Origin: a virus | Reading direction: 5' to 3' (one strand) | Length of the DNA: 29,959 nucleotides | Virus record (IMG/VR): IMGVR_UViG_3300029319_000322 | Coordinates: 1-29,959 of that record | Shown here: positions 1 through 28,887 of the stretch, piece by piece | Layout: each line of letters begins with the position of its first letter | Position numbering within the stretch: the first letter of the stretch is position 1 | The notes under the pieces: model-generated | The model's database searches: none | Told to the model about the DNA's origin: nothing | Seen by the model: the letters and a program-made list of their open reading frames with translations, nothing else | Made by a program: the position numbers and the translations under genes

Positions 1-55
1 ATATCTCCTTGCCATAATTATTATTGAAAAGGAAAGTGCTGTTAAGCACTCTCCT
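1..55. repeat. 55-bp direct repeat, left copy
   Basis: These bases are identical to 29622-29676. The segment contains, read on the minus strand, the repeated hairpin, an AAT-rich tract and the ribosome-binding site AAGGAGATAT. At the right end it leads into the 55-residue gene at 29452-29619. Here it runs off the window edge, so the gene it would serve is not visible. Confidence 0.95.
31..54 (-). repeat. Intercistronic hairpin, copy 1
   Basis: Read on the minus strand, GGAGAGTGC pairs with GCACTTTCC around the loop TTAACA (9-bp stem, one G-U pair). It begins at the TAG stop of the gene at 54-362 and is followed by an AAT-rich tract and AAGGAG. No clean T-run follows, so it does not look like a normal terminator. 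Confidence 0.8.
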
Positions 56-362
56 AGTTTGGTAAATGTGCATTTAGGTTAATTACTTTGTAACAATAAT
101 CTTTATATCTGTTACTACCAGAACCATAAAAAGAATAATTACTTGGATAATAATATCCAGATTTTCTAGATTCTTTTTCTTTCCAATATGTAGCATTATC
201 CCAATACATAAACTGCTCCATTACTATATTATAAACATCTTCTGGTGAAAAACCTCTCCATAATAATTTCCATATTCTTTTATCACAGCAGATGTTTCTT
301 CCATCTTTTAATTTTAATTTTTTTCTAGCTTTTATAAAATCGGTTGTTAGTTGTAAATACAT
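54..362 (-). CDS. Early protein of unknown function, 102 aa
   Basis: I do not recognise a family. The product has a basic N-terminal third (KARKKLKLKDGR), two adjacent cysteines, and an aromatic tyrosine/tryptophan-rich second half with a YYYPSNYSFYGSGS stretch, so it is probably a small soluble protein. The ATG at 362 has a good ribosome-binding site (AAGGAGAAATAA) just after an AAT repeat. It is the last visible gene of the left-end early cluster, and its TAG stop abuts repeat hairpin copy 1. Its leader contains an 11-nt match to the complement of the candidate plus-strand RNA at 1386-1466. Confidence 0.75.
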   Translation of the reverse strand: MYLQLTTDFIKARKKLKLKDGRNICCDKRIWKLLWRGFSPEDVYNIVMEQFMYWDNATYWKEKESRKSGYYYPSNYSFYGSGSNRYKDYCYKVINLNAHLPN

Positions 363-387
363 TTATTTCTCCTTATTATTATTAGTA

Positions 388-411
388 GGAAAGTGCTGTT
401 AAACACTCTCT
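388..411 (-). repeat. Intercistronic hairpin, copy 2
   Basis: On the minus strand this is a diverged copy of the repeated hairpin: GAGAGTGT pairs with GCACTTTC around TTAACA. The C-to-T change at the top of the stem leaves a G-U pair, so pairing is kept. The TAA stop of the 46-residue gene (399-401) sits at the top of the stem and in the loop. An AAT repeat and AAGGAG follow. Confidence 0.75.
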
Positions 412-539
412 TTTAAAACTTTTTTCACTTTAGTAATTTCTTCAATTAATTCTTTTATTAAAGAAAATTGTTTATTTTTTTTTGCTACTTCTAAATTATG
501 TTCCATAGCACTAATTCTATTTTTTAAATGTTTTTTCAT
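399..539 (-). CDS. Small helical early protein, 46 aa
   Basis: This 47-codon frame runs from ATG at 539 to TAA at 399-401. It begins MKKHLKNRISAMEHN and continues as an alternating charged/hydrophobic helix (KELIEEITKVKKVLKESV), which suggests a short coiled coil. The leader is an AAT repeat followed by GAGGAT, the same arrangement as its neighbours. The last codons (GAG AGT GTT TAA) form one arm and part of the loop of repeat hairpin copy 2. The function is unknown; its position between two short early genes with matching leaders supports it as real. Confidence 0.65.
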   Translation of the reverse strand: MKKHLKNRISAMEHNLEVAKKNKQFSLIKELIEEITKVKKVLKESV

Positions 540-567
540 TTTATCCTCATTATTATTATTATTAAGA

Positions 568-591
568 GAAGAGTGCAATTAAGCACTCTCC
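568..591 (-). repeat. Intercistronic hairpin, copy 3
   Basis: On the minus strand, GAGAGTGC pairs with GCACTCTT around the loop TTAATT. Relative to copy 1, the G-U pair has become G-C, which indicates that the structure is maintained. The TAA stop of the gene ending at 579 lies in the loop. Five AAT units and GAGGAT follow, leading into the 46-residue gene. Confidence 0.8.
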
Positions 592-854
592 TTGTATAAA
601 GTTATATTGTTAGTATCTACCCACTCCCAAGAATAATTTTCATCATTCTTAAAACCAAATATGTCCATAACTTTTTCTGTGTCATATTCTTCTCTACTTC
701 TAATCCAATCGTGTAATTCACTTCCATAAACTAATTCTATGTTCAAAGAATTATCATTGTAATTAGTAAACTTAAAATCAAAACTACAAGCCATATCGTA
801 TTTAGCAAAATATTTTTTAGCTTGTAATAAAATTTTTTCTCTTAAATGTTTCAT
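579..854 (-). CDS. Early acidic protein of unknown function, copy 1, 91 aa
   Basis: A 91-residue protein starting MKHLREKILLQAKKYFAKYD. It differs from the product of 29663-29938 at only four positions (T/S30, N/D33, D/E49, K/R61), all conservative. I see no known domain; the predicted layout is an N-terminal amphipathic helix, then an acidic, aromatic region (NYSWEWVDTNN). An upstream ATG at 893 is in frame, but the ATG at 854 is preceded by AAAAGGGG and matches the start of the paralogue. Its last three codons and stop (GAG AGT GCT TAA) lie within repeat hairpin copy 3. Confidence 0.8.
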   Translation of the reverse strand: MKHLREKILLQAKKYFAKYDMACSFDFKFTNYNDNSLNIELVYGSELHDWIRSREEYDTEKVMDIFGFKNDENYSWEWVDTNNITLYKESA

Positions 855-897
855 AAAAAACCCCTTTTCATTATTATTATTAAATATCTTCATTATT

Positions 898-925
898 AAT
901 AACCTAGCAGAATTTTTAGGTTATT
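898..925 (-). other. Perfect 9-bp inverted repeat between early genes
   Basis: AATAACCTA (898-906) and TAGGTTATT (917-925) pair perfectly around a 10-nt loop. It lies downstream of the 98-residue gene and upstream of the 91-residue gene. There is no T-run on either strand, so a processing or stability element, or an operator, is more likely than an intrinsic terminator. It differs in sequence from the repeated GAGAGTGC hairpins. Confidence 0.6.
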
Positions 926-970
926 CAATACTTATTTTCATAATTACAAAAATAATTTTTAGTGTGATAT

Positions 971-1267
971 TTATGACACAGTAGGTTTTTTATATATGTA
1001 ATCAGAATAATCTACTACTTCACAATCTGTATTCTGTATAACAGTTGAATAAATCGGAACTACTTTAATTGCTTTAAATATTCCAGACTTATTACCTTCT
1101 ATTTGTTTTATTAAGTAATTTATATAAAGTTCTTTTGCTTTTTCTATTGCTTTTGCTTTATCTTTCATAACTATAGATATATCTATATCACGAATAGTTG
1201 ATAATTCAGAATCTATAACTTCTGAAAAGCCATTTTCTTTCGTTACTAAATTTATTAAATATTTCAT
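971..1267 (-). CDS. First gene after the leftward promoter, 98 aa, unknown function
   Basis: The product starts MKYLINLVTKENGFSEVID and is a compact alpha/beta-looking protein with a Lys/Ala/Glu-rich central helix (KDKAKAIEKAKELYINY), ending in a tyrosine-rich tail. I do not recognise the family. The frame is open back to 1330, but that start would overlap the promoter; ATG 1267 has AAGAGGAAAAAA directly upstream and follows the predicted transcription start by about 28 nt. As the first gene of the early transcript it could act in host takeover, but that is only inferred from position. Confidence 0.7.
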   Translation of the reverse strand: MKYLINLVTKENGFSEVIDSELSTIRDIDISIVMKDKAKAIEKAKELYINYLIKQIEGNKSGIFKAIKVVPIYSTVIQNTDCEVVDYSDYIYKKPTVS

Positions 1268-1301
1268 TTTTTTCCTCTTAATTATTGTTATCTCATATAT
1301 A

Positions 1302-1330
1302 AATACACTTTTCAGACATTTTTTTGTCAA
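1302..1330 (-). promoter_or_regulatory. Leftward sigma-70-type early promoter
   Basis: On the minus strand there is a perfect -35 box TTGACA (1330-1325), a 17-nt spacer and the -10 box TGTATT (1307-1302, 4 of 6 consensus bases). Transcription would start near 1295 and reach the ATG at 1267 through a short leader with a good ribosome-binding site. It is the strongest minus-strand promoter I found and lies at the head of the small early genes. Confidence 0.7.
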
Positions 1331-1350
1331 ATTATGTAAATTTTATATTG

Positions 1351-1379
1351 TTGTATTTTTGCAACTTGCTCTATATAAT
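1351..1379 (+). promoter_or_regulatory. Rightward promoter for a candidate small RNA
   Basis: On the plus strand, TTGTAT (1351-1356) and a perfect TATAAT (1374-1379) are separated by 17 nt. The predicted start is about 1386. The -35 region lies within a small dyad (GTTG...CAAC), which could be an operator. No plus-strand protein gene lies downstream; an intrinsic terminator follows at 1436-1466. Confidence 0.6.
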
Positions 1380-1385
1380 GAATAC

Positions 1386-1466
1386 TACCTTATTTCTCCT
1401 CATTTAAGGTTTAATCATAATAATAATAAACCTATACCCTAGCCAATGAAAGCTAGGGTTTTTTTT
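1386..1466 (+). ncRNA. Candidate small regulatory RNA, about 81 nt
   Basis: The transcript would run from the predicted start near 1386 to the T-run ending at 1466. A 5' hairpin has a 6-bp stem (ACCTTA 1387-1392 with TAAGGT 1405-1410) and a 12-nt loop, TTTCTCCTCATT, which contains an anti-Shine-Dalgarno core. An AU-rich linker with ATAATAATAATA follows, then an 8-bp terminator hairpin. The loop is complementary over 12 nt to the leader of the gene at 28447-28863, and an overlapping stretch over 11 nt to that of 54-362. Structure, size and location resemble base-pairing small RNAs. I have no expression evidence, and SD complementarity alone can arise by chance. Confidence 0.5.
1436..1466 (+). 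terminator. Intrinsic terminator, plus-strand orientation
   Basis: ACCCTAGC (1436-1443) pairs with GCTAGGGT (1452-1459) around an 8-nt loop, and T-residues continue to 1466. The T-run is on the plus strand. On the minus strand the hairpin is followed by TATAGG and AAT/ATT repeats, so it is a poor terminator for the late operon that ends at 1485. Confidence 0.8.
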
Positions 1467-1484
1467 GAGGGTAGGTATTTTGTG

Positions 1485-1619
1485 TTAGGAAAGTCTTAAA
1501 AGTTTCTGTGTGGCTCTTAAAACCTTTTTATTGCGTGTTCTTGTTCGTTTTCTTTTTCTTTTAATAGGTCTTTTGTTTATAAGTTCCGATATGGTTGCAG
1601 TTGTAGTAAATCCATTCAT
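1485..1619 (-). CDS. Arg/Lys-rich miniprotein, 44 aa
   Basis: The frame starts at ATG 1619, overlapping the TGA of the upstream gene as ATGA, and ends at TAA 1485-1487. After a neutral start (MNGFTTTATISELINKRP) it becomes strongly basic (IKRKRKRTRTRNKK) and ends in a short amphipathic segment. It is the last gene of the late operon. A nucleic-acid-binding or virion-associated role is suggested by charge only. Confidence 0.6.
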   Translation of the reverse strand: MNGFTTTATISELINKRPIKRKRKRTRTRNKKVLRATQKLLRLS

Positions 1620-1798
1620 TTTCCAACTGACCTCATTGCTCTAGTATGTGCTTGACCAAATGTAGCACCTTTTTTCATAGCATTAGCCATAGACCTCATG
1701 TGTTTTAAACTATGGTGTCTAGCATGACGATTCATAGTTTTGCGTTGTCTTGGAGTAAGGTCTTTAGTAAATTTTTTTATTGATGCAACTTTAACCAC
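1616..1798 (-). CDS. Basic His-rich small protein, 60 aa
   Basis: The start is GTG at 1798, overlapping the upstream TAG as TAGTG; the stop TGA is at 1616-1618. The protein is short, basic and rich in histidine and methionine (RKTMNRHARHHSLKHMRS, then ATFGQAHTRAMRSVGK). It looks like a folded helical protein that may bind nucleic acid or metal. The middle member of three co-oriented basic miniproteins, coupled by stop/start overlaps on both sides. The function is unknown; small proteins of this type occur near the lysis genes of other marine phages, by recollection. Confidence 0.65.
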   Translation of the reverse strand: MVKVASIKKFTKDLTPRQRKTMNRHARHHSLKHMRSMANAMKKGATFGQAHTRAMRSVGK

Positions 1799-1890
1799 TA
1801 TCTTTTTTTCTTACCCATTTTCTTTTTCTTCTTTTTACCTTTTTTCTTCATTCCTTTTGAATGTGATCCTTTACCAGTATGATATGGCAT
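1798..1890 (-). CDS. Lysine-rich miniprotein, 30 aa
   Basis: ATG 1890 has an excellent ribosome-binding site (AAAGGAGGTTAAT). The product begins MPYHTGKGSHSKGMKKK and is then almost all lysine with a few Gly, Met and Arg residues. The TAG stop overlaps the GTG start of the next gene. The short N-terminal MPYxT motif followed by a Lys tail resembles tiny proteins annotated in marine phages; a role in DNA condensation or membrane binding is possible but unproven. The strong SD argues that it is translated. Confidence 0.65.
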   Translation of the reverse strand: MPYHTGKGSHSKGMKKKGKKKKKKMGKKKR

Positions 1891-1947
1891 ATTAACCTCC
1901 TTTATGTTGAATAGTAGAATGTATTGTAATCCGATTTGCTATCATAA

Positions 1948-1959
1948 TCAATATTGATA
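1948..1959. other. Perfect AT-rich palindrome ATCAATATTGAT
   Basis: A 12-bp perfect palindrome lies downstream of the holin-associated open frame and upstream of the basic miniprotein genes. It could be an operator half-site pair, but no promoter boxes of good quality surround it. It may be no more than chance in AT-rich DNA. Confidence 0.35.
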
Positions 1960-1963
1960 TTTT

Positions 1964-2125
1964 TTAAAATTTTTTATTGTCTTTTTCATCATTTAACCAA
2001 TTATGTATTTTACTCCAAGCATTATCAATTCCTAATAAATCCTCCTCTGGAATTTCATTTCCGTATTTTTCAAAAAATTCTATTAATTGTTTGTTGATTC
2101 TTTTTAAATCTTTTTCTTTTTCTAT
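1964..2125 (-). other. Start-less 53-codon open frame after the holin gene, possible frameshift extension
   Basis: Directly downstream of the holin stop (TAG 2122-2124) there is an open frame of 53 sense codons in the -1 frame, ending at TAA 1964-1966. The translation is protein-like, with acidic/basic helix and segments such as LIEFFEKYGNEIPEEDLLG and AWSKIHNWLNDEKDN. It has no ATG, GTG or TTG codon, and an in-frame TAA stands just upstream of its first codons. The holin ends GGT AAA AAA TAG, so a -1 slip of the AAA tRNA at the stop would add this tail to the holin. Alternatives are a rare ATA/ATT start or a gene remnant. It falls in what otherwise looks like a gap. Confidence 0.4.
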
Positions 2126-2517
2126 TTTTTACCTACACTTCCTTTAGTATCTACTTTTTTATATTTTTCAAAAGTTCTCAAACCACCTATACCAAGCATA
2201 CCCAATAACAATGGCATCATTATTGACATATCTGCTTGGGGTATAGTTATTCCAAATCCAGCACAAATAGGAACAATCATAAAGTTTATACCTAAAGACA
2301 TTGCACATATCCAACCAATTAAAGGTCGCCAAGACGACTGAAACCAGTTGCCTTTAGCTTCCTCGGTGTTTAGTTTTATTTGAGCCAATGCAAGTTCTTG
2401 ACTGTGTTTCTCTGCCATTGTGCTTATTTCGTGAGCCAGTTCCATTTGTTTTGTTTTGTCTTTTACAAATTTACCAATTAATTTTGTAGCTGGTGCTATT
2501 AAAGATGTTAATGCCAT
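2122..2517 (-). CDS. Putative holin of the 3TM type, 131 aa
   Basis: Residues 1-55 are an amphipathic helical region (KFVKDKTKQMELAHE). After the conserved-looking NWFQSSWRPLIGW (57-69) come hydrophobic segments at about 64-88 and 98-114, and a basic tail. This resembles the 3TMs phage holin family (PF11351), where an N-terminal helical domain precedes SWRP and membrane helices. Its start overlaps the stop of the M15 peptidase gene (TAATG), giving an endopeptidase-holin lysis pair. Holins form inner-membrane lesions that release the muralytic enzyme. An extended form by frameshift is possible (see 1964-2125). Confidence 0.75.
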   Translation of the reverse strand: MALTSLIAPATKLIGKFVKDKTKQMELAHEISTMAEKHSQELALAQIKLNTEEAKGNWFQSSWRPLIGWICAMSLGINFMIVPICAGFGITIPQADMSIMMPLLLGMLGIGGLRTFEKYKKVDTKGSVGKK

Positions 2518-2966
2518 TATTTCATTTCCTTATATTGTTTTCCGTTGAAAGATAAATATTTTTTTCTATTGTTTTCTAAACTAAAAGATATATGAACCCA
2601 GCCTGATTTTGGTTCTCCTTCTTTATAAAATTCTAATATAATCTGATCATAATTTAAATGTACACTACACCAGTTTGCTAAATCTAAATTACTAATAGTT
2701 GGTACTTCGATATCAACAGCTTCACCTTTACAATGTTGGCTAGTAGGTTTTGATTTTAGAAGTTGATTTAATTCTGGTGATCTATAACCAGAGTTAGGAC
2801 TAAATGGTATTCCAAAATTATCTCTTATAGGTTGCAAAATATTATTTGATACAGCTATAAGATTATTAATAATATCCTGGTCTGTAGGAATATTAATAAT
2901 ATTATGCCTGGTCGCTGTTTGACTTTTGCATAGTTCAGCCAAAGTAAAATTTTTAGATAGTTCCAT
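2517..2966 (-). CDS. Peptidase M15-family endolysin, 149 aa
   Basis: The length and motifs match the M15A/DUF882-type zinc D-Ala-D-Ala carboxypeptidase/L,D-endopeptidase domain that cuts peptidoglycan crosslinks. I see SGYRSPELN at 59-67, the zinc motif SQHCKGEAVDIE at 76-87 (ligands His78 and Asp85) and the third ligand in GWVHISF (His125). There is no signal peptide, which fits an endolysin that depends on a holin for access to the cell wall. The ATG at 2966 follows AAAGGAATTTAA, and the stop overlaps the holin start. Confidence 0.88.
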   Translation of the reverse strand: MELSKNFTLAELCKSQTATRHNIINIPTDQDIINNLIAVSNNILQPIRDNFGIPFSPNSGYRSPELNQLLKSKPTSQHCKGEAVDIEVPTISNLDLANWCSVHLNYDQIILEFYKEGEPKSGWVHISFSLENNRKKYLSFNGKQYKEMK

Positions 2967-3007
2967 TTAAATTCCTTTTAATCATTATATATTCAATAAG
3001 TGAGTAT

Positions 3008-3649
3008 TCAATCCTTTTCTATAATCCAATTATTTTGTTGTCTTTTATATTCTAAATATAATTCAGTATCAGCTCTTTCTCTGCCTTCATTTAAACATAT
3101 TAACCACCACTTCGGTGTATAGACAAGGCAACTTTCGTCATCATATTCCATATCATGTGCATATACTGGATCAGAAACCGAAACAAAAAACTTAAATGTA
3201 ACACCAATAGCAACTCCTAAAAATAATATTACTGCTAGTGTTATGAATCCGTATTTTATATATTCTTCTATCTCTTGACGTTTTTTTAATCTTCTTGCTT
3301 TTTCTTCCTTTATAGCTTGTTTTTGTGCATCTATTCTTCTTTTTCTTTCTTGTAAAATAAATTCCCAAGTTCCATGACCAAACCTTAAATTGACCAAATT
3401 TCTTAGTTCATTTAAATTTTCTCTGGCTATCTTAACGTCAATTATCTCTTGAGCAACTGTACCAATCGCAAAAGGATCAGCACCAGATTTATCTCTTGCT
3501 TTTATACATTGTTGCTCACCAGTCATAGCTTTATCTATATGACCAATAATATCACCAATATCGTTGCAAGTTTCTATTTGTTGTTTTACAAAGTCGACAC
3601 TTTTTTTAACTAATGCCAATCCAGTCAGGATTGTAACTGGTTCAACCAT
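3008..3649 (-). CDS. Membrane protein with cytoplasmic coiled coil, 213 aa
   Basis: The first 130 residues are helical, ending in a highly charged stretch (QERKRRIDAQKQAIKEEKAR at about 100-119). A single strong membrane segment follows (GFITLAVILFLGVAIGVTF, 134-152), then a C-terminal domain with two cysteines (Cys174, Cys185) and WW residues that could lie outside the membrane. I cannot name the family with confidence; similar proteins sit next to lysis genes in other marine phages. The start overlaps the end of the 78-residue gene by 8 nt. Possible roles include a spanin-like or virion-internal protein. Confidence 0.7.
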   Translation of the reverse strand: MVEPVTILTGLALVKKSVDFVKQQIETCNDIGDIIGHIDKAMTGEQQCIKARDKSGADPFAIGTVAQEIIDVKIARENLNELRNLVNLRFGHGTWEFILQERKRRIDAQKQAIKEEKARRLKKRQEIEEYIKYGFITLAVILFLGVAIGVTFKFFVSVSDPVYAHDMEYDDESCLVYTPKWWLICLNEGRERADTELYLEYKRQQNNWIIEKD

Positions 3650-3878
3650 TATTCTTTTCTATGAACCTATCTAACTTGTTTTCAATTCTTAAAATTAAAT
3701 CTTTTATTTCTCTGGTTTCGTTTTTTAGTTCAAATTTTGTTGCATAATCTTCTCTGGTTCTGTTAAGTAAAATTTGCAATCTTTTTATTTCTGCAAACAT
3801 TTTTCCAAAAGCCCACCCAAAAGGTACGACTATAAAAGACAAAACTATATTCCAAACTAGAAAAGGGTCTATGGTCAT
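3642..3878 (-). CDS. Small membrane protein with C-terminal coiled coil, 78 aa
   Basis: One hydrophobic segment at residues 7-28 (FLVWNIVLSFIVVPFGWAFG) is followed by a charged helix (KMFAEIKRLQILLNRTRED) and a second coiled-coil-like stretch ending RIENKLDRFIEKNNG. This topology is seen in holin-like and spanin-like proteins and in small phage membrane anchors. It is flanked by overlapping genes: its ATG overlaps the TAA of the 32-residue basic gene (TAATG), and its end overlaps the 213-residue gene. Its exact function is unknown. Confidence 0.7.
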   Translation of the reverse strand: MTIDPFLVWNIVLSFIVVPFGWAFGKMFAEIKRLQILLNRTREDYATKFELKNETREIKDLILRIENKLDRFIEKNNG

Positions 3879-3976
3879 TAGCCTTTCCTTTTCTTTGTTG
3901 GTCTACCTCTTTTTTTCTTTTTTCTTTTTAAAAAACTTTTTATTTTACCTAAGATATTCTTTAACTGTTTTATCAT
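3878..3976 (-). CDS. AT-hook-like basic miniprotein, 32 aa
   Basis: A 33-codon frame from ATG 3976 to TAA 3878-3880. It begins inside the end of the 214-residue gene in another frame, and its stop overlaps the next start (TAATG). The leader GGGAAGGTGGACAG is a plausible ribosome-binding site. The N-terminus is amphipathic (MIKQLKNILGKIKSFLKR) and the C-terminus is KKKKRGRPTKKRKG, which holds the RGRP core of an AT-hook flanked by lysines. AT-hooks bind the minor groove of AT-rich DNA. The exact coupling to both neighbours supports it; the DNA-binding role is inferred. Confidence 0.5.
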   Translation of the reverse strand: MIKQLKNILGKIKSFLKRKKKKRGRPTKKRKG

Positions 3977-4589
3977 CTGTCCACCTTCCCATTCTGTTTT
4001 GGGTTTTAATAGTTCCATCTTTGTTTAGTTCATTATCATATAATGCCTTAAAGTCATCTAATGTTTTACAATTTGTAACTGCTGTTTCTATCTCTTCACA
4101 ATCGGTTCTAATAGATGCAACATACGTTTTAACTGCATCTGGTATAGTTTTACTACTATCATATATTGATCTCTCTACAAGCCAACTAAAACGACTTATA
4201 AGGCTATTTGCTGTTATTTTAGTTTGCTCTATAGCTTGAGTTTTTAAACCATAATTCATAACCTTGTTTCCATCTTCATCTAAAATATTTTTACCATCAT
4301 CATCTTTAGCTTCAGAGTCCTCAATATCTTTTTCATGAATCGTGTAGCTTGTAGTAATATTTTTATTTTTAGAACTAAATGTGTAAGTTGCCTGAGATGT
4401 ATATTCAAACTTATCATCTCCTTTAGTTCCACTATCTACAACTTGATAAAGTCCTATTGCGTTTAGTTGTTCCCAAGTCCAAGTATTAAATATTGCTCTT
4501 GGGTGTTTTATATTATTTTCTGTATCTATAAATGTTCTTGGAAATCTTATAATCTCTATTACTTTATTATCTTTTACATATCCCCACAT
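3945..4589 (-). CDS. Fibre-associated protein, 214 aa
   Basis: The protein starts MWGYVKDNKVIEIIRFPRT, an N-terminal beta segment (here with IFNTWTWEQLNAIGLYQVVD, residues 33-52) like that of many small phage proteins encoded next to tail fibres. The centre is polar and Asp/Lys-rich, and the C-terminal half is helical with Thr/Glu/Asp residues. It directly follows the large fibre gene. A fibre chaperone, tail-fibre assembly or accessory fibre role fits the position, but no catalytic motif is visible. The ATG at 4589 follows a GGGG-rich ribosome-binding site. Confidence 0.65.
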   Translation of the reverse strand: MWGYVKDNKVIEIIRFPRTFIDTENNIKHPRAIFNTWTWEQLNAIGLYQVVDSGTKGDDKFEYTSQATYTFSSKNKNITTSYTIHEKDIEDSEAKDDDGKNILDEDGNKVMNYGLKTQAIEQTKITANSLISRFSWLVERSIYDSSKTIPDAVKTYVASIRTDCEEIETAVTNCKTLDDFKALYDNELNKDGTIKTQNRMGRWTDDKTVKEYLR

Positions 4590-4598
4590 ATTTACCCC

Positions 4599-6431
4599 CT
4601 AAAAAGTATTGTTATATTTAAATGGAACATCTCCCCATGCTCCATAGATAATAGTGCTACCACTTCCATTAAAATCACCATCAGAAGTGCGTAACTTAAA
4701 ACCAGCACTAGTAAAATCAAAATTACTACCAGAACTTTCTGAACCACTATCATGCCAACCAACGTATTTATTTACTGGATTAAAAGTATCTCTAGCTGAA
4801 TCAAAAACCCACCAACCACCAGTTGTACTACTTCTTTTTACAAATATCATACGAGGTCTAAAACCTGTATAGATAAATGGCCCATTAGTACTACCATTTC
4901 CAACATAGCTTCCAAAATTACTGTAACCTTCAACTGAATGCCATACATAGGAAACATAATCACTACCTGAAGCATTTAAATTATTATCACCACCATTAAC
5001 AGCAAAAACACTATTAGTAAAAGAACCAAAGTCATACAAATTATTACCAACACCATACGCACCAGTACTATTTAAATATATTCTACCATTATTTGCAGGT
5101 TCACCTCCACTATTCATACTTTTGTGAGTAGTTGTCCAACTATAAGCACCATCTCTATTTTTAGTTATAATAAAATCAGGTTTTTGAGTTAATCCATGTC
5201 CAATAGTGTCTGTAGAACCACTCCCTGTATAAGTTACAATACTAAAGCCCGCTTTTATATTTGCTTGTACTGTAGAAGTTATTGAACCATCATTATTAGT
5301 AGCTGTAGTGCCTCCATTTGCTCTCCAACACCAACCAACAAAAGTACCACTACTTACATTACTAATAGAATCATTTCCAGTAACAGTAAATCCATCACTA
5401 TCAAAACTTGTAAAATAAGAAGAAGCTGTTCTTTCGTCATTTGAATTATTTGATGATAGTCTAGCATTAGTTCCTCTATTAGTATCTAATAACATATTAC
5501 TTCCACTAGAACCTCTTTGTTTTAACCATACTAAATCTGGTTGAAATCCTAATCCAGATATAGCATTACTAGAACCTGTACCAGTATAAAGAACTGTATT
5601 AAAATTTTTCTGTGGAAAATTATCATCAGTCTGTGCTGGGTCTATGTCATCTGATATGGGTAGGTTGCTGGTATTCCAAGCCAAATAACCAGATGGGACG
5701 GAGTAGGCAAAATCCCCTAGACTATTTGAGTCTTGATTCCCTCCAGCCGAAATTTGTCCTCCAAAAGTGCTGTCTTGTCCAAAATTAAAATATCCAGCAG
5801 TTCCACTTGATGCTCCAGCTATCCATAAAACTGGTGTCCAAAAAGACCCTTGCCATGTTGATTCTATAGCCCACCCATCTACTTGAGTAATATCTGTATT
5901 AGAACCAGTAGCACCAGCAGTATTATTGGAATACCAAGTTCCATTTCTACCTATGTATAATTTATAATTATCTAAGTCTAAAGCTATCATGTATATGTCG
6001 CCTACAGCATTTACTCTTATTCCAGTATTACTTGAACCACTATCGTTATTGCCATAATCCCAAGATAAACTTGTAGGGTGAGATAACTTACCTCCTTGAT
6101 AATTTGGTCTTAAATAATATACATGAGTTCCCTGTGATCTAGCAGATGTACTTCTTCTTTTTATATATATTTCACCATCATATAATCCTGAAAAGTTTCC
6201 TAATGCTTGTACTCCTACTTGTAATCTAGCATCATTAATATTAGCATCAGCATCATATCTTTCCTCGTAGTACCATTTGCCTGATTTAACTGCCATAGTA
6301 CCCATAGTTTGAATTCCATTAGCCGTATTTTCTGCTCTTAAATTTCCATTAGAAAAAGTTAATTTTGAAGTTCCATCATCATCTAATCCCATTAAAGGAT
6401 TCATAGTACAAAAATTTCCATTACTTGCCAT
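4599..6431 (-). CDS. Large tail fibre or receptor-binding protein, 610 aa
   Basis: Residues 1-230 look like a beta-sandwich, with SGKWYYEERYD (50-60) and YKLYIGRNGTWY (156-167) resembling SPRY/concanavalin-like surface domains. After a linker come three diverged repeats starting near 280, 397 and 508. Each has a G-F/L-x-P core (GFQPDLVWLK, GLTQKPDFIITK, GFRPRMIFVK) and ends in an aromatic strand (FVGWCWR, YVSYVWHS, IIYGAWGD). Such arrays are common in marine phage fibres and probably bind the host surface. It lies 5 nt after a LamG-like gene and may be the second half of a protein split from it. Confidence 0.8.
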   Translation of the reverse strand: MASNGNFCTMNPLMGLDDDGTSKLTFSNGNLRAENTANGIQTMGTMAVKSGKWYYEERYDADANINDARLQVGVQALGNFSGLYDGEIYIKRRSTSARSQGTHVYYLRPNYQGGKLSHPTSLSWDYGNNDSGSSNTGIRVNAVGDIYMIALDLDNYKLYIGRNGTWYSNNTAGATGSNTDITQVDGWAIESTWQGSFWTPVLWIAGASSGTAGYFNFGQDSTFGGQISAGGNQDSNSLGDFAYSVPSGYLAWNTSNLPISDDIDPAQTDDNFPQKNFNTVLYTGTGSSNAISGLGFQPDLVWLKQRGSSGSNMLLDTNRGTNARLSSNNSNDERTASSYFTSFDSDGFTVTGNDSISNVSSGTFVGWCWRANGGTTATNNDGSITSTVQANIKAGFSIVTYTGSGSTDTIGHGLTQKPDFIITKNRDGAYSWTTTHKSMNSGGEPANNGRIYLNSTGAYGVGNNLYDFGSFTNSVFAVNGGDNNLNASGSDYVSYVWHSVEGYSNFGSYVGNGSTNGPFIYTGFRPRMIFVKRSSTTGGWWVFDSARDTFNPVNKYVGWHDSGSESSGSNFDFTSAGFKLRTSDGDFNGSGSTIIYGAWGDVPFKYNNTF

Positions 6432-6436
6432 ATTAA

Positions 6437-7201
6437 TTAACTCCCAAATGTTGGACTATCAAGAACTTGATGGTCTGCACCAAGTCCATTTGTTGAAAAG
6501 TCATTATTATTACCACTTGAATCATTGCCTAAATCACTTGCATTTTCAAATTTTAATCTAAACCCATTATTTCCATATGTACCTGAATAATCAATAGGGA
6601 TCCAAACACCATTTTTAAATTCACCAAAAGATGTAGGAGAAAGTTGTTGCCCATCTACACCAATAAATTCTGCTAAATATAAATCAGGTTGTATAGTAAC
6701 ACCAGTATTATGTCCAAAATATAAAACCTGACTATTTTTATTATAGCTAAAATTAGAATCTTGAGTTACTGTACCATCAAAACCAGAACTTGTATCTTCT
6801 ACTCCATTAACATAAACTTTAACTCTATTTGCATTAGTTCCTTGAGTTGTATCTACTGCTAATACAAAATGATACCAACCATGAGTATCTCTAAAAACAC
6901 CATCACTTTCAAAATTTTCTGCATTAGCATTAACAGAAAATGTAAGCTTATCAGAAGTTACAAATCGACTATTTATTCCACCACCATCATAAGTAAAAAG
7001 AAGTTGTTGATTTGTACTTAGTATACTTCTTTTAACCCAAAAACTAAAAGTTCCTATTTTTTGATTTGTTGATGTTCCATTTGTTTTATTAATATAAGAA
7101 TTACTAGCAACTCCATCAAATCTACAGCTTTGCTCTATCTGATATGAATAAAATCCAGCAGTAGCTCCAGCACCACTAAACCATTTTTCATTTGCCACCA
7201 T
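6437..7201 (-). CDS. LamG/concanavalin-like fibre protein, 254 aa
   Basis: The sequence has the signature of a LamG-type jelly roll: SCRFDGVASNSYINK (29-43), GTFSFWVKRS (50-59), HGWYHFVLAVDTT (107-119) and VKVYVNGVED. The tail reads QVLDSPTFGS, and the next gene opens with MASNGNFCTMNPLMG. In related marine phage fibres I recall a continuous SPTxNFxTxNP junction, so the two genes may be halves of one ancestral fibre. The start overlaps the stop of the 343-residue gene. Confidence 0.75.
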   Translation of the reverse strand: MVANEKWFSGAGATAGFYSYQIEQSCRFDGVASNSYINKTNGTSTNQKIGTFSFWVKRSILSTNQQLLFTYDGGGINSRFVTSDKLTFSVNANAENFESDGVFRDTHGWYHFVLAVDTTQGTNANRVKVYVNGVEDTSSGFDGTVTQDSNFSYNKNSQVLYFGHNTGVTIQPDLYLAEFIGVDGQQLSPTSFGEFKNGVWIPIDYSGTYGNNGFRLKFENASDLGNDSSGNNNDFSTNGLGADHQVLDSPTFGS

Positions 7202-8232
7202 CAGCTAAAAGCCAGTTGAGGTGTCGATAAAAGAATACTATTATCAGCTTTAATAAGATATGCAACGACATCATAAGCTGAATTTGTACTTGATAAAGTT
7301 AAACCAGCACCCCCTACAGTTTCATAATCACCATGTAGGCTAACTGTTCCAGCACTACCACTTGAAGGCTGTATAAATACTATAATACCAGTTTGCCCTA
7401 CGTTCCCAGCTTCAGTACTAGGTTGTGCAAGTGTGTTAGCACCAGAACCTAAAGTAAGTATGAAATTTTGGTTTGTATCAAAGTCTAATGTTTTGCTAGT
7501 AGAAATTGTTGCTGTTTCAGTCTTTGGAATATTTACTTTATTACTTAATGTTCCAGTAGATACTAAAGAAACTAGAGTTGAATTTGCTCCGTCTGGTAAT
7601 AATAATTCATTTGTTACTGATGCTGAATGTGGTTGTGCCTTCACAATTTGACCATGTGAGTTATTTTCGCAATTAAACTGTATTGCACCAGAATTAGTGT
7701 TTCCTCTTACAGTTACATGACCAGTTCCTTTAGCTTCAATATCTAAATCAATATTACTATCCCCACCAGTTGCACTCAACTTTGGTGGATTACCAGTTGC
7801 AGAGTTTGTTATATCAAATTGATTTACTGCTGAAGATGTTTTTTGAAATATAATAAGTTCGTTTCCATCATCATCATTAATTCCATGTGCATCATCAAAT
7901 TGAATATTTCTGCTATTAGTATCTAAATCACCCCCTAGCTGTGGTGTTGTATCATTTACTAAATCTGATTGGCTAGTACTATCTATAAAGTTTATAGTGT
8001 TAGCAGATGTATCTACAGTTGCAAATGAAATATCATCTGAACCATCAAAAAATTTAATCTCCAAACTATTAGAAGCTGAGTTGGTTGTATCTAACCATAG
8101 TGTTCCTACAACTGCACCACTAGGTCTTGATGTTCCACTGTGCATGGAATTTAATGCTCCCAGAGCATTATTTAAATCACTCCTAAAACTAGGAAATGAT
8201 TGGTTTGCTATGTTCATGTCATGTTGTGCCAT
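7201..8232 (-). CDS. Tail fibre protein, 343 aa
   Basis: The N-terminal part (NIANQSFPSFRSDLNNALGALNS, then GTSRPSGAVVGTLWLDTTN) is a motif I associate with the N-terminal attachment region of phage tail-fibre proteins, where PxxxxxG-LWxDT repeats occur. The rest is beta-rich and Ser/Thr/Asn-heavy, with GDSNIDLDIEAKGTGHVTV (154-172), typical of beta-helical or trimeric fibre shafts. It follows the tail-tip gene with a 17-nt gap and starts the distal fibre cluster. Its C-terminus is not a known receptor-binding fold that I can identify. Confidence 0.75.
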   Translation of the reverse strand: MAQHDMNIANQSFPSFRSDLNNALGALNSMHSGTSRPSGAVVGTLWLDTTNSASNSLEIKFFDGSDDISFATVDTSANTINFIDSTSQSDLVNDTTPQLGGDLDTNSRNIQFDDAHGINDDDGNELIIFQKTSSAVNQFDITNSATGNPPKLSATGGDSNIDLDIEAKGTGHVTVRGNTNSGAIQFNCENNSHGQIVKAQPHSASVTNELLLPDGANSTLVSLVSTGTLSNKVNIPKTETATISTSKTLDFDTNQNFILTLGSGANTLAQPSTEAGNVGQTGIIVFIQPSSGSAGTVSLHGDYETVGGAGLTLSSTNSAYDVVAYLIKADNSILLSTPQLAFS

Positions 8233-8249
8233 AATTATTTATACTCCTT

Positions 8250-11135
8250 TTAGAATCCTTTTGCAATAAAATCAAATGTTTTTGATACTCCAGAATTTGA
8301 ACTATTAAAAAATGCTACATCAAAACCAGTAATCGCCTTGTTGCTAACTGTAAAATAATCTCCAGTTGCCATACCTTGAGCAGTTACTCCTACAGCATAA
8401 TTAGTTGTTTTGAAAGGTTTGTCAAATGCTATTGACTTTGTACTTGTTCCAGAAACGATATCGTTACCACTAAATATTCTGTCTTGCATATCAAGAGTTA
8501 CACTCACTTGAGATACTACTGGTGTTGATGCGTTATCTCTTGAAATTAAAACAACTCTAAATTTATAATATCTTGCTTCATATTCGCCAATTACAAAACC
8601 TCTAAAATCTGTAAATGTTGTATTATCATCACTTGTTGCTATTTCAAGATGAGCATTACAATTAGCTGGGGTATCTCCGTCAAAGTTACTTGAAGCATCA
8701 TCAAAATTTCCTGATCTTCCATCAAATAAATCGTCTGGGTTATCGGAGGTCTGTGTCATTGATGCTGTTATTCTTACAGTATGTTTTGCTCCTATATCAA
8801 TTACATTTTCAAATTCATAGTTACCAGTTGATACAAAATCAAAATTACTAGCTCCTTGATCAAAGAATCTATCTGTATCATCATCAAAGTTTCCACTAGC
8901 AGAATCAAATAGTTCTGTACTATCTAACTCTATTGCACCATCTATTAAAATGGTATCTGTAAATGTACCTCCGAAAGTAGGGTGTTCTGATTGTGTAGCA
9001 ATATTATTAAAATTAATTGCACTTGTTACATTCGATATGATAGCAGTTGCATTTGAACTAAAGTTTCCCAATTTATCGACTGCTTTAATTAAATAAGTTC
9101 CTTGTCGTACTGGTACAGATATTGATGTAGCTGGTCTTGATATTTTTTCTACTAATGCCACAGAGTTTTGCCAGTCAGCAGTTCCGTCAGTTTCTTCAGA
9201 AAACCTTAAATTATAAAAAGCTAAATCTAAATCTGTTACAGCTTCCCATGACAAATGAGCTTCTTGACCTGATACATTACAAGAAAAATCTGTTATATCT
9301 GAGGGAGGAGCTATCGCACCTACTATCTTCCTTTGAGCTGATACATACGTTGAAGATATACCAGCAGTACTTACAGCTTTTACTCTTACATCATACGTTT
9401 GCTGGTCAATCACATTTAAAACTCTATGATTTAATCCAGAGCCTTGAGCATATATTATAAAATCTGAATCTGTGCTGAGTTTGTATTCGACTTGGTAAAA
9501 ATCTATAAAATTATCAGGAGATGCACCTACAGTAATATCCAAAGCTACAATAACTGTTCCATCATTATATTCTATCAGTTGATCTGATAAAGTTACACTA
9601 GCTGGAGGTTGTATTACAAAAGGGTTTGGTAATGTTGTTGTCGGTATACTTGCAACCTCTTGCTGTGTTCCAAAAGTATAAAAACTGTCTTGATGTTCAG
9701 AACATTGTAAAGATACTGTGTGGTCGCTGTTTACATTCATACCTTGTATTCTAAATGCTTTTGCTGAAAAACTTGGTGTTGCGTGAGTAATATTTACAAC
9801 ATCTCCTACTGCTAAATCCAATGCAGTTGCGTCAGCAGTAAGGCTAATGTCTAAACTTGACCTTGACCTCCTTAAAATAATTTCAGCCATCTCTTGAGCT
9901 TGATATGGACTGGTAAACATTGGAAAGTCAAATCTCCCTTCTAACAATAACCCTCCATCTGCTGTTTTCATAGTTGCGTGTTGATCTGCACTAGCTAAAC
10001 CAGTTTCATCTACTGGAGGAAATTGTACTGTGTCTGATTGGTAATTTTTTTCAGGGTTGGTAAAGTTTACTATAACTCTATTATATCTTGAATTTTTGTT
10101 TTTACTGTTCACCGATATACCACCAATAATATTATCTTCAGTTAGTGTTATTGATGCAGAGCTGGTTGTTTCAACTAAAATATTATAGATACCTCCAGAG
10201 AAGTTTAAATAAGACCTAGACCCTCTTACAAATTCTTTTACATTATCTATAGCTTTTTTTGATGTATCTACTACTGTGTGGCTATCCATTAAATCTATCT
10301 GATTAGCTCCACTATAAGGGGTTATATTTGCATCACAAACATCTGTTGCAGTTTGCCAGTCTGCAAAGTTACTGTCAAAATAACTATTTGCTATACCCAT
10401 TCCAAATCTATCGTTTCTTAAATAATCTAATAGTTGCAAAATAGGATTGTCTGAATATTCCCAAGTTGAACTTGTATCTGCTCTATGACTACCACTTCCA
10501 CCAGTAACAGTACTATCTAAATTTGGATTATATACCTTCTTACCTTGTACTACTGCTTGAACTGTTGGTAATGAACCAAACTTGTCTTGATTCCATTCAA
10601 ACCTAATAGCTAAGTAACATAAACCTCTTAATCTGTGGTTTGAAGTCCAAGAACTCAATGTAGATAATAATGAAGATGCAGTCTGGCTATCACTTCCAAA
10701 ATGGGGTTCGCAAGTAATTAAACTTGATCCACTAAAAAAATTAGCATCTCCACTTCCTACAGTTATTTGTGTATTATCTGCAATATCTCCTGACCAGGTA
10801 ACTTGATTATCATTTATAAATATAGCTGTTATGTCATTTACTTCTCCCTCACTTAATACTATAGCCATATATAAATATTGATTATCTGTTCCTGAAGTTT
10901 CTAGGAATACAACATTACCACCAACTTTTCTTGTTCCATATACTATTGGTATGTGAGCATTAGCATTAAATTTATTTACTAATACACCTCTATTTGTTTG
11001 TTCTGCTAAATTTTCTCCAAAATCAGGTATTTCTGGTTGTGGTATTAACCACCCTATAGCATCTCCAACTAAATCACCTACAAAATCTACAACTGGAGCT
11101 ACAAAGTCTACTACTGCTTGAAACGGATTACACAT
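8250..11135 (-). CDS. Tail-tip attachment protein, lambda J-like, 961 aa
   Basis: The N-terminal 70 residues contain a hydrophobic/amphipathic anchor and then NAHIPIVYGTRKVGGNVVF, the hallmark of the phage tail-tip (central hub) family. Later are NPILQLLDYLRNDRFGMG, then DPL-like beta domains and fibronectin III-type segments (SWEAVTDLDLAFYNLRFSE). The C-terminal 220 residues include Asp-rich repeats (FDSASGNFDDDTDRFFDQ and FDGRSGNFDDASSNFDGD). In lambda-type phages this protein forms the tail tip and contacts the receptor. It follows a GNAT-like gene, overlapping its stop by one base (TAATG). Confidence 0.85.
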   Translation of the reverse strand: MCNPFQAVVDFVAPVVDFVGDLVGDAIGWLIPQPEIPDFGENLAEQTNRGVLVNKFNANAHIPIVYGTRKVGGNVVFLETSGTDNQYLYMAIVLSEGEVNDITAIFINDNQVTWSGDIADNTQITVGSGDANFFSGSSLITCEPHFGSDSQTASSLLSTLSSWTSNHRLRGLCYLAIRFEWNQDKFGSLPTVQAVVQGKKVYNPNLDSTVTGGSGSHRADTSSTWEYSDNPILQLLDYLRNDRFGMGIANSYFDSNFADWQTATDVCDANITPYSGANQIDLMDSHTVVDTSKKAIDNVKEFVRGSRSYLNFSGGIYNILVETTSSASITLTEDNIIGGISVNSKNKNSRYNRVIVNFTNPEKNYQSDTVQFPPVDETGLASADQHATMKTADGGLLLEGRFDFPMFTSPYQAQEMAEIILRRSRSSLDISLTADATALDLAVGDVVNITHATPSFSAKAFRIQGMNVNSDHTVSLQCSEHQDSFYTFGTQQEVASIPTTTLPNPFVIQPPASVTLSDQLIEYNDGTVIVALDITVGASPDNFIDFYQVEYKLSTDSDFIIYAQGSGLNHRVLNVIDQQTYDVRVKAVSTAGISSTYVSAQRKIVGAIAPPSDITDFSCNVSGQEAHLSWEAVTDLDLAFYNLRFSEETDGTADWQNSVALVEKISRPATSISVPVRQGTYLIKAVDKLGNFSSNATAIISNVTSAINFNNIATQSEHPTFGGTFTDTILIDGAIELDSTELFDSASGNFDDDTDRFFDQGASNFDFVSTGNYEFENVIDIGAKHTVRITASMTQTSDNPDDLFDGRSGNFDDASSNFDGDTPANCNAHLEIATSDDNTTFTDFRGFVIGEYEARYYKFRVVLISRDNASTPVVSQVSVTLDMQDRIFSGNDIVSGTSTKSIAFDKPFKTTNYAVGVTAQGMATGDYFTVSNKAITGFDVAFFNSSNSGVSKTFDFIAKGF

Positions 11136-11575
11136 TAATTTAATCTCCAGTTGCCACCTAAACTTTCAAACCCTAATTTTTTAAATACTGGGTCTATGTT
11201 TAGTCCACTTGTTACCGATAAATAAATAGGTAAATCCTCTGATGCTTTTTTGATTGCATCTACTAATGTTGCTACAAGTTTAAAGTTTCTAAAATTTTTT
11301 TTAACAAAAATAGTATGCAAATGTATACACTCACTTTTGCTAAACCAATATTCTGTTTTTCCAAAAATTGCACAACCTATTACTTGGTTTAAATCTAAAT
11401 CTTTTACTAAAATAATTTTACCTTTTTCTAACATAATTTTTATAAAAGTATTTAATTTATTGTGATCTACCTCTGGGTAATTTAATTCTTGTAAATCCAC
11501 TTCTTTAAATTCATTCATTAAATCACAAACAATTTTAACATCTTTCTTTTCAGCATTGTATAAATGAATACTCAT
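11135..11575 (-). CDS. GNAT-like acetyltransferase within the tail operon, 146 aa
   Basis: The fold and length match the GNAT N-acetyltransferase superfamily: an N-terminal IHLYNAEKKDVKIVCDLMNEF, a central strand pair around KIILVKDLDLNQVIGCAIFG, IHLHTIFVKKNFRNFKLV (motif A strand and loop), then a helix and C-terminal VFKKLGFESLGG. The usual Q/RxxGxG/A acetyl-CoA loop is degenerate here (KNFRNFKL), so cofactor use is not certain. The ATG at 11575 overlaps the upstream TGA as ATGA; an in-frame ATG at 11587 exists but is less likely. This position usually holds a peptidase or tail-tip assembly gene in lambda-like operons. Confidence 0.7.
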   Translation of the reverse strand: MSIHLYNAEKKDVKIVCDLMNEFKEVDLQELNYPEVDHNKLNTFIKIMLEKGKIILVKDLDLNQVIGCAIFGKTEYWFSKSECIHLHTIFVKKNFRNFKLVATLVDAIKKASEDLPIYLSVTSGLNIDPVFKKLGFESLGGNWRLN

Positions 11576-12138
11576 ACTCTTCCCCATTTAATATCTTTTA
11601 CAGTTAATGCTGAGAACTCCATTCCTTTGTCGCCACTAAAAATTCTTTGTTGAGAATTGTCTGTTGTAGTTCTACCATTAATCTTGCTAAAGTTTCCCCA
11701 ATGTGAAGTAACTGTTAAAGTAATAGTTGCAGTTGAAGTATTATCATTTACTTTAAATTCATCTATAGTTCCAAAGAATAATAAAAAAGGATCAGCTATT
11801 AAAGATAAACTACTATCTAAAAACCCTCTATAAATATAAACATCATCATTAATAATATTTTCATTCAAAGCTACACTGATATATGTTTGATCCACACCTG
11901 ATAGACTAATCCCTAAAGTGTTTTTTGTAGGTGTATTAGTTTCACTTACATTAGTAATGCTTTTTAAATGACCATTAGCTAAATAAGTTCTTGAACTACC
12001 TGATACACTTGATGTAATATCAAAACTTGCATTTGTTAAATATATTGGTGTTCCAAAACCTATTTCTAATAATAATACTGGCTCTATAATACCAGTTGCT
12101 AGTTCGGTTTTTACTGCACTTGTTAAACCTCTAGCCAT
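11572..12138 (-). CDS. Minor tail (tail-hub) protein, DUF2163-like, 188 aa
   Basis: The N-terminus (ARGLTSAVKTELATGIIEPVLLLEIGF) and the following beta-rich domain are like those of the DUF2163/distal hub proteins that lie between the distal tail protein and the tail-tip gene in siphoviruses. The C-terminal stretch GDKGMEFSALTVKDIKWGRV is a short tail. Its order (tape measure, distal protein, this gene, GNAT, J-like) supports a tail-hub role. There are no catalytic motifs. The stop overlaps the GNAT start by ATGA. Confidence 0.7.
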   Translation of the reverse strand: MARGLTSAVKTELATGIIEPVLLLEIGFGTPIYLTNASFDITSSVSGSSRTYLANGHLKSITNVSETNTPTKNTLGISLSGVDQTYISVALNENIINDDVYIYRGFLDSSLSLIADPFLLFFGTIDEFKVNDNTSTATITLTVTSHWGNFSKINGRTTTDNSQQRIFSGDKGMEFSALTVKDIKWGRV

Positions 12139-12746
12139 TATAAACTCTCTATTACATCAAACTCATAAGTGAACAATAGATTACCATTACTATCATTTTC
12201 TGTTGTTTTAAATTCTTGAACATCACTTGTTAAATGAACTTTAAAAGAAACGGAGTCATAAGTAACAGAACTATTATCTGAAAGTGCAGTTCTTAATGGT
12301 GGTTCTATAGTAACTGTTGCAGAGTTACTTGAACTGGTTACATCTTCTACTACCATATAAACTTTGTCATGTGCAAACTTTAATAAATCACCAGCTTTTA
12401 ATCTACCAGCACCATCTCCAGCAAAACCATCTATTGCTATTGTGGTGTCTGATGCACTATGAGAACCATTGATTAAAAGTGTTCCAGTTTCATTTCCTTG
12501 AGAATTTAAGTAGCTTGGCATAGTTATTGTAAAATCTTCTTGTCTTGATCTTTGCTTCATTATAAAAGCCATAATTGGAGCAAAGTCTGACCTCTTCATT
12601 GGTGGATAGCTTACTGTAAAACTAAACCTTTGACCTTGTACTTGCCTTCTGAAAGATTTTCCACTATCTGTTTCAGAAAATAAAGTCTTTTGATTACTTT
12701 GTAAATTAATCGCTGTAAAATTTGTATCTGGTAATGTTCCACTCAT
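12138..12746 (-). CDS. Distal tail protein-like minor tail protein, 202 aa
   Basis: The N-terminal half has FRRQVQGQRFSFTVSYPPM and SDFAPIMAFIMKQRSRQEDF (residues 31-70), like the dsDNA phage distal/tail-hub proteins that follow the tape measure. The central beta region (TLLINGSHSASDTTIAIDGF, AGRLKAGDLLKFAHDKVYMV) resembles the second domain of such proteins. It starts 4 nt inside the tape-measure end (ATGA) and its stop overlaps the next start (TAATG), so the four tail genes are translationally linked. Confidence 0.7.
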   Translation of the reverse strand: MSGTLPDTNFTAINLQSNQKTLFSETDSGKSFRRQVQGQRFSFTVSYPPMKRSDFAPIMAFIMKQRSRQEDFTITMPSYLNSQGNETGTLLINGSHSASDTTIAIDGFAGDGAGRLKAGDLLKFAHDKVYMVVEDVTSSSNSATVTIEPPLRTALSDNSSVTYDSVSFKVHLTSDVQEFKTTENDSNGNLLFTYEFDVIESL

Positions 12747-14776: not shown

Positions 14777-15300
14777 TTATCGCCTTGCCCTTTCTAATCG
14801 TTCTTGTCTTTCTCTTTCTTCATTTTGAATTTCAAAGTATGCTACCCACAAGTAAAATTCATCAACTGACATTTCTAAAATTTCGGCGACTGTTTTATGT
14901 AGTTTTTCTGCTAACCCAAAGATATTATGTAACTCAACATTATTTTTTAGTTTTTTTTATTGTCCTCTAAATCTTTGTTATCAGTACCCATTATTTTTGT
15001 GGAAACTTCAGCTATAATATTTGTGTCTGCTTTTGTCTTAAAACCTAATACATCTTGAGCAGTAAACATTTTTTTACCATCTTTTGTTAAAGATTTTTCT
15101 ATAATAACATCAATCAAAACTAATAAGTCTGTGTTACTAGCACCTTTAAAAATCTTTTGCTTTTCCATCATATTAAATGGTTTACAATGAATAGCTTTAT
15201 CGCCAACTAATCCCCACTCTGGCACTTCAATAATTTTAGTATCTAATGCACTAAAATGATCTCTTATGCCATCAAAATAATCAATTTTATTATCAGTCAT
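14777..15300 (-). CDS. Tail assembly chaperone, -1 frameshift fusion (G-T type), about 174 aa
   Basis: A -1 slip on A AAA AAC at 14956-14950 joins the 117-residue zero frame to a 57-residue extension ending at TAA 14777-14779. The extension contains AEKLHKTVAEILEMSVDEFY and ends in an Arg/Glu-rich helix with RERQERLERARR. It has no good start codon of its own; the ATG at 14940 is in another frame and hits a stop after nine codons. Such shifted/unshifted pairs (lambda gpG and gpGT) bind the tape measure and tube protein during tail assembly, and the extension ends right at the tape-measure start. Confidence 0.8.
14947..15300 (-). CDS. Tail assembly chaperone, unshifted form (G-like), 117 aa
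   Basis: This is the zero-frame product, starting MTDNKIDYFDGIRDHFSALD, with a domain around LVGDKAIHCKPFNMMEKQKIFKGAS, then a helix bundle and the end LEDNKKN. The position between tail tube and tape measure, plus the slippery sequence at the last codons, identify it as the tail assembly chaperone. It would be made in excess over the shifted form. The stop is TAA at 14947-14949. Confidence 0.8.
   Translation of the reverse strand: MTDNKIDYFDGIRDHFSALDTKIIEVPEWGLVGDKAIHCKPFNMMEKQKIFKGASNTDLLVLIDVIIEKSLTKDGKKMFTAQDVLGFKTKADTNIIAEVSTKIMGTDNKDLEDNKKN
14950..14956 (-). promoter_or_regulatory. Slippery heptamer A AAA AAC for -1 frameshifting
   Basis: Read on the minus strand, the codons AAT AAA AAA AAC TAA contain the classical X XXY YYZ site A AAA AAC in the correct phase, directly before the stop. 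A -1 slip re-pairs both tRNAs perfectly or nearly so. I did not find an obvious strong downstream stem, so the efficiency may be modest. Confidence 0.8.
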
Positions 15301-24840: not shown

Positions 24841-25058
24841 TTTACTTTGCCTTTGAAATATTGTTTTAAACATTTTTCACATATATATTCTATAGCATTA
24901 TCTACTTTGATTATTGGATTTGCTCCACACTTACAACAGAATAACCATTTACCAGTCGAAAATTTATCTTTTTGTTTTTCATCATTCTTTTCTTTTTTAC
25001 CCATACTATAGAAGGTGTAATCTTGTCTAGGAACATCTCCTTTAAATCTATCTGTCAA
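24828..25058 (-). CDS. Zinc-ribbon small protein, 76 aa
   Basis: The C-terminal half contains a zinc-ribbon: FCCKCGANPII (Cys41/42, Cys44) and YICEKCLKQYF (Cys60, Cys63), separated by about 16 residues. The N-terminal half is Lys/Glu-rich. The apparent start is TTG at 25058 overlapping the TGA of the upstream gene; a later ATG (codon 19) gives a shorter form that keeps the ribbon. It probably binds DNA, RNA or protein as a small regulator before the terminase genes. Confidence 0.65.
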   Translation of the reverse strand: MTDRFKGDVPRQDYTFYSMGKKEKNDEKQKDKFSTGKWLFCCKCGANPIIKVDNAIEYICEKCLKQYFKGKVKWKL

Positions 25059-25918: not shown

Positions 25919-25936
25919 TATTTTCTCCTCTATTTT

Positions 25937-28863: not shown

Positions 28864-28887
28864 ATTTTTCTCCTCATTATTATTATT

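Follow-up and report, generated by a model that had tools for sequence, protein, structure and literature searches.

What lies between the late operon and the first early genes of this phage genome? The window, by which we mean the whole 29,959-base virus record analysed here (31% GC), carries siphovirus-like proteins (terminase, portal, capsid, scaffold, tape measure, J-like tail protein, holin and endolysin). The closest named phages to its large terminase are Pelagibacter phages HTVC111P, HTVC026P, HTVC202P and HTVC112P, at ~56% identity, and a SAR11-like host is therefore likely. The late genes of the window extend down to small basic ORFs at 1485-1895 and the early genes begin at 1267; the gene order suggests that, if the genome is circularly permuted, the early genes run on past base 1 to 29938-25055. 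The gap between these two sets of genes is filled by a unit at 1351-1466. The first-pass annotation of this DNA had placed all elements of the unit on the strand without protein genes, and we found that all clear genes of the window indeed lie on the - strand, opposite the unit. Judging from the sequence, we put the probability at about 0.7 that 1351-1466 is a phage gene for a base-pairing RNA that acts in trans, repressing the translation of several early genes of the same phage.

The promoter, 6-bp hairpin, loop, AU-rich linker and terminator that the first-pass annotation had described were each recovered in place, exact to the base (Table 1). The RNA itself is a prediction, with its start inferred from the -10 box and its end from the terminator. 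Taken by itself, the promoter scored marginally above shuffles (p = 0.048), and the terminator was the first listed of five terminator-like sites in a scan of positions 1-15000. No second promoter-hairpin-terminator unit was found on either strand of the window. The presence of its own promoter and intrinsic terminator is as for trans-acting base-pairing sRNAs, with modest support for the promoter in any single genome. An alternative hairpin (1407-1413/1427-1433), which draws in part of the linker, rivals the 6-bp hairpin and is about as stable; either fold leaves the CUCC stretch unpaired.

Table 1. Coordinates of the candidate small-RNA gene and of its predicted targets in the window.
Feature	Position	Strand	Basis
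Sigma70-type promoter TTGTAT-17-TATAAT	1351-1379	+	sequence; similar TTG...16/17...-10 box in 12 contigs
-35 box TTGTAT	1351-1356	+	read directly
-10 box TATAAT	1374-1379	+	read directly; spacer 17 nt
Small RNA, ~80 nt, predicted	1386-1466	+	conserved unit in 12 contigs
Hairpin 1, stem ACCUUA/UAAGGU	1387-1410	+	fold -4.0 kcal/mol, z -2.95
Hairpin 1 arms ACCTTA / TAAGGT	1387-1392 / 1405-1410	+	sequence
Loop UUUCUCCUCAUU (DNA TTTCTCCTCATT), anti-SD seed	1393-1404	+	complementary to leaders 28867-28878 and 363-373
AU-rich linker with AAUAAUAAU repeats	1411-1435	+	sequence and folds
Intrinsic terminator ACCCTAGC-8-GCTAGGGT plus T-run	1436-1466	+	stem 1436-1443/1452-1459
Predicted target AAUGAGGAGAAA, leader of ORF 28447-28863	28867-28878	-	12-nt perfect complement
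Predicted target AGGAGAAAUAA, leader of ORF 54-362	363-373	-	11-nt perfect complement to TTATTTCTCCT
Predicted target GAGGAGAAA, leader of DUF1376/primosomal replication protein 25055-25918	25922-25930	-	9-nt complement
Predicted weaker target AAUGAGGA, leader of ORF 399-539	544-551	-	8-nt complement

Two early leaders had been named as partners of the RNA, that of ORF 28447-28863 for the loop and that of ORF 54-362 for an overlapping 11-nt stretch. Both complementarities were verified. Elsewhere on the genome coding strand, exactly two sites match the reverse complement of the hairpin over at least 10 nt, and these are the same two, both in ribosome-binding regions of early ORFs. The named leaders therefore stand, and the likely list is broader, adding the leader site at 544-551 and that of the replication protein. 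Pairing with the replication-protein leader spans 9 nt in the window and 8-10 nt in the related contigs L002, L066, L073 and L017. None of the predicted targets has an antirepressor annotation, and most are without a family match. The comparison with shuffled controls that the first-pass annotation had suggested placed the window hairpin above its dinucleotide shuffles: the top-5 mean of its SD-anchored leader matches was reached by 0 of 1,000 shuffles, and its 12-nt maximum by 9 of 1,000.

Comparison with related phages, also suggested at the outset, bore out the unit, which recurs in 12 contigs with rewritten stems, a loop that stays anti-SD and loop and leader flanks that co-vary. Relatives were gathered via the holin neighbour, the terminator pattern and the neighbouring small basic proteins, giving 15 distinct related loci, window included, with flanking genes in common. 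Twelve of these, all marine phage contigs and again including the window, carry the whole unit of promoter, hairpin and terminator on the + strand at the late/early border. All 12 contigs have a promoter with a TTG -35 box, 16-17 nt and a -10 box (per-genome shuffle p 0.03-0.15), and all 12 have the terminator CCCUAGC...GCUAGGG-U (as DNA, ACCCTAGC...GCTAGGG with a T-rich tail), whose palindrome occurred once in each genome in a search of related contigs (16 of 16). The first stem differs completely among lineages, with at least five unrelated versions, and pairs in every case: it is ACCUUA/UAAGGU in the window, UUUGGGUUU or UCUGGGUUU in L013, L014, L003 and L019, AACCCUAA in L066 and L073, ACCCU with an inner UAUAC stem in L002, GAGCCU in L106, AUGGAAAU in L008 and UGAUUUAU in L004 and L017. 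Within groups, L013/L014 differ from L003/L019 by a compensatory T-A to C-G double change in this stem, and L066 differs from L073 by a C-G to U-G change, which leaves a pair in a + strand RNA only.

An unpaired CU-rich anti-SD stretch, CUCC or UCCUC, lies in the loop in 11 of the 12 contigs; L106 has the hairpin and lacks the anti-SD loop. The second loop motif has decayed in L003, where the leader match is not above shuffles. The AU-rich linker is not conserved in L002, L066, L073 and L106, from which its AAU repeats, which we take to resemble Hfq distal-face motifs, are missing. According to the first-pass annotation, relatives that keep the flanking genes and not the RNA would speak against it. 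This applies in part: L012, L015 and L016 retain the flanking genes and terminator and have lost both the promoter and the hairpin with its loop, and L106 has lost the loop motif. These cases indicate that the RNA is dispensable in the clade and is a lineage trait.

No comparable unit was found in the cultured Pelagibacter siphophages HTVC111P, HTVC026P, HTVC112P and HTVC202P or in phage DSL-LC06, and its absence from the nearest cultured phages weighs against the proposed RNA. Megablast of the region against named phages gave zero matches, and searches via the neighbouring small basic proteins found no members beyond the 12. A convergent gene occupies the place of the unit in more distant genomes. 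Many contigs returned by a pattern scan of the viral collection share the CCCTAGC palindrome only; their base composition, context and neighbouring genes marked them as unrelated, and we set them aside.

Consistent with pairing between the RNA and early leaders, we found that the two change together. The typical early leader in these phages has the form (AAU)n-xxAGGAG-AU-rich-AUG, in which the bases directly 5' of AGG vary by lineage. The loop UCCUCGUU of L066 and L073 corresponds to AACGAGGA leaders, with AACGAGG in seven early genes of each, and the loop CUCCUCAUUAUUA of the L013 group corresponds to UAAUAAUGAGGAG, with matches of 14 nt in three L013 leaders. L008 has an 11-nt loop match in two leaders, L017 combines loop UUCUCCUUUAU with AUAAAGGAGAA leaders, and L002 combines CUCCUCGUAU with AUACGAGGAG, the latter only ahead of the replication protein. 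Between the window lineage and L073, the loop differs as CUCCUCAUU versus CUCCUCGUU and the leader as UGAGG versus CGAGG. When early leaders within 7 kb were counted, CGAGG was present in 15 of 45 leaders accompanying CCUCG RNAs versus 1 of 154 elsewhere (Fisher 3e-10, for leaders that are not independent), and AAAGG in 9 of 15 in L017 versus 43 of 184 elsewhere (p = 0.004). UG-class leaders were weakly enriched with UG-type RNAs (19/65 versus 25/134; p = 0.07, not significant) and enrichment of UA-class leaders was not significant (p = 0.20), so that co-variation is carried mainly by the CG and AA lineages.

Swapping RNAs among genomes, with one representative per lineage, gave pairings that equalled or beat the own RNA/genome pairing in 133 of 40,320 permutations, or 939 of 40,320 in a count-based version of the test. 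The main test used an SD-anchored statistic on the hairpin alone, because a longest-match statistic that included the linker was inflated by AT-repeat matches; the two agree in direction. Own hairpins exceeded their shuffles in leader matching in 9 of 11 cases (top-5 p < 0.03). Because neither the leaders of one genome nor the genomes of one lineage are independent, these statistics overstate certainty, and it is the concordant direction across several lineages that counts. The predicted RNA has an unpaired seed with above-chance, co-varying complementarity to leaders, as do trans-acting base-pairing sRNAs.

Could the conserved feature act on the - strand instead, the 'loop' being a leader-like SD segment in the 5' region of an early mRNA, or a DNA/RNA-protein site common to leaders? 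The loop does read as an SD (GAGGAG) on that strand, with early genes downstream, and the - strand folds equally well as the + strand; fold energies do not settle strandedness. However, no start codon follows the SD-like segment, and the resemblance to leaders does not reach past the loop and in most relatives does not take in the (AAU)n tract. The T-run and promoter, moreover, are on the + strand in every relative carrying them, promoter and hairpin were lost jointly in L012, L015 and L016, and the U-G pair of L073 is compatible with a + strand RNA only. We consider a - strand function improbable on these grounds. An RNA directed against host mRNAs, or against host translation generally as a form of host shut-off, with the phage leaders incidental, is a second rival: the CUCC cores fit any SD, and the two-hairpin CU-rich layout resembles RF02278, which takes its name from growth inhibition in E. 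coli (PMC5688073). We judge host targeting to be about as improbable, as it does not predict that loop bases beyond the SD core track the early leaders of the same phage (the CGAGG and AAAGG classes), or that the four best leader matches in the window all belong to early genes.

It is slightly less probable still that only the terminator matters, keeping + strand (antisense) transcription out of the late operon, and that the promoter and hairpin are noise. The terminator is the sole part found in all related contigs, including those without promoter and hairpin. Against this, the promoter and a paired stem of unrelated sequence are kept in 12 of the 15 loci and the anti-SD loop in 11, and stems that stay paired through complete sequence turnover argue that promoter and hairpin are not noise.

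Other features were observed around the late/early border. On the - strand of L002, L012, L015, L016, L017, L066, L073 and L106, the late-mRNA 3'UTR, flanked by the last small basic ORF on one side and by the CCCTAGC palindrome on the other, has UUUCUCCU-like anti-SD stretches. They are complementary to early leaders over as many as 12 nt and exceed shuffles in most cases; own-genome specificity was not seen for them. Read on the + strand, these stretches form an SD-ATG-mini-ORF (MKVLKAFV), which the window lacks, its ATG being replaced by AGG. Ahead of the first early leader, at window 898-928, lies a palindrome, AATAACCTAGCAGAATTTTTAGGTTATT, conserved in L003, L004, L008, L013-L015 and L019, that is possibly an operator or early promoter control site. 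Between it and the small-RNA promoter, window 971-1270 holds an ORF of 98 aa that has a leader of its own, together with an inverted repeat of the TGACA...TGTC kind; as palindrome and promoter adjoin in most relatives, this gene seems to have been inserted here (or lost elsewhere). Hairpins of the AAGTGCTGTTAAGCACT / GAGTGCAATTAAGCACTC type recur upstream of several early leaders (window 35-55, 390-410 and 565-592), each close to an (AAT)n tract and SD.

By analogy, the window RNA would work like c4 RNA and the CU-rich sRNAs, and we do not claim membership of either family. The c4 antisense RNA of phages P1/P7 blocks translation through loops that carry the complement of a ribosome-binding region (PMC12197685). 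The window RNA is likewise a phage RNA with such a loop, and blocking is predicted; in contrast to c4, which acts on one gene (ant) in temperate phages, it would act in trans on several early leaders from a free-standing gene on the opposite strand. Lambda OOP RNA and P22 sar RNA are likewise short phage RNAs that dampen a regulatory or early gene by antisense action (PMC12197685), but each pairs with one mRNA (cII and ant, respectively), whereas the window RNA has several predicted targets and overlaps none. LhrC/RsaE-type CU-rich sRNAs of low-GC bacteria bind the SD through UCCC/CUCCC in loops and single-stranded parts and block translation (PMC4132741). A CU-rich unpaired stretch also faces the SD in the predicted pairing of the window RNA; LhrC/RsaE RNAs are, however, bacterial with cellular-gene targets, and the phage-encoded window RNA, apparently aimed at its own early genes, has a CUCCU/UCCUC core, not UCCC, with flanks that track leaders. 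RF02278, the Betaproteobacteria toxic small RNA, is a CU-rich double-hairpin of 57-92 nt in Burkholderia (PMC5688073) and shares with the window RNA a hairpin bearing an unpaired CU-rich stretch and a second, terminator hairpin. It is chromosomal in Burkholderia, however, and the window scored far under the gathering threshold (20.9 bits versus 50); all eight matches in an Rfam search of 1200-1700 were below gathering. The literature searched held no description of small RNAs in pelagiphages.

Transcription, repression and a dependence on timing or dosage are what we infer from these observations. Host RNA polymerase would make the RNA from its promoter and stop at the terminator. The CU-rich loop, or the single-stranded 5' end in the alternative fold, would pair in trans with the SD regions of the leaders of the early ORFs at 28863, 362, 25918 and 539 of the same phage, and SD occlusion would block ribosome binding and reduce translation of early and replication genes. 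With a promoter that looks constitutive (host-type), the RNA may accumulate in step with the number of genome copies and thereby restrain early expression in the course of replication. More tentatively, at somewhat less than even odds, the early genes may form an 'RNA regulon', in which a single small RNA follows a co-evolving RBS code common to ~4-8 early leaders and would bring about a concerted shut-down of early translation as genome copies accumulate, without a protein repressor.

The phage small RNAs described in one review (PMC12197685) for the most part target either host genes or a single phage gene that they overlap or adjoin. The window RNA appears to be a multi-target, trans-acting brake on the early programme of the phage that encodes it, and across relatives RNA and leaders have changed together. 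For ocean phages, which are mostly uncultured and whose regulation is little known, it would provide a concrete case of RNA control of the early-late transition that can be tested by mutation.
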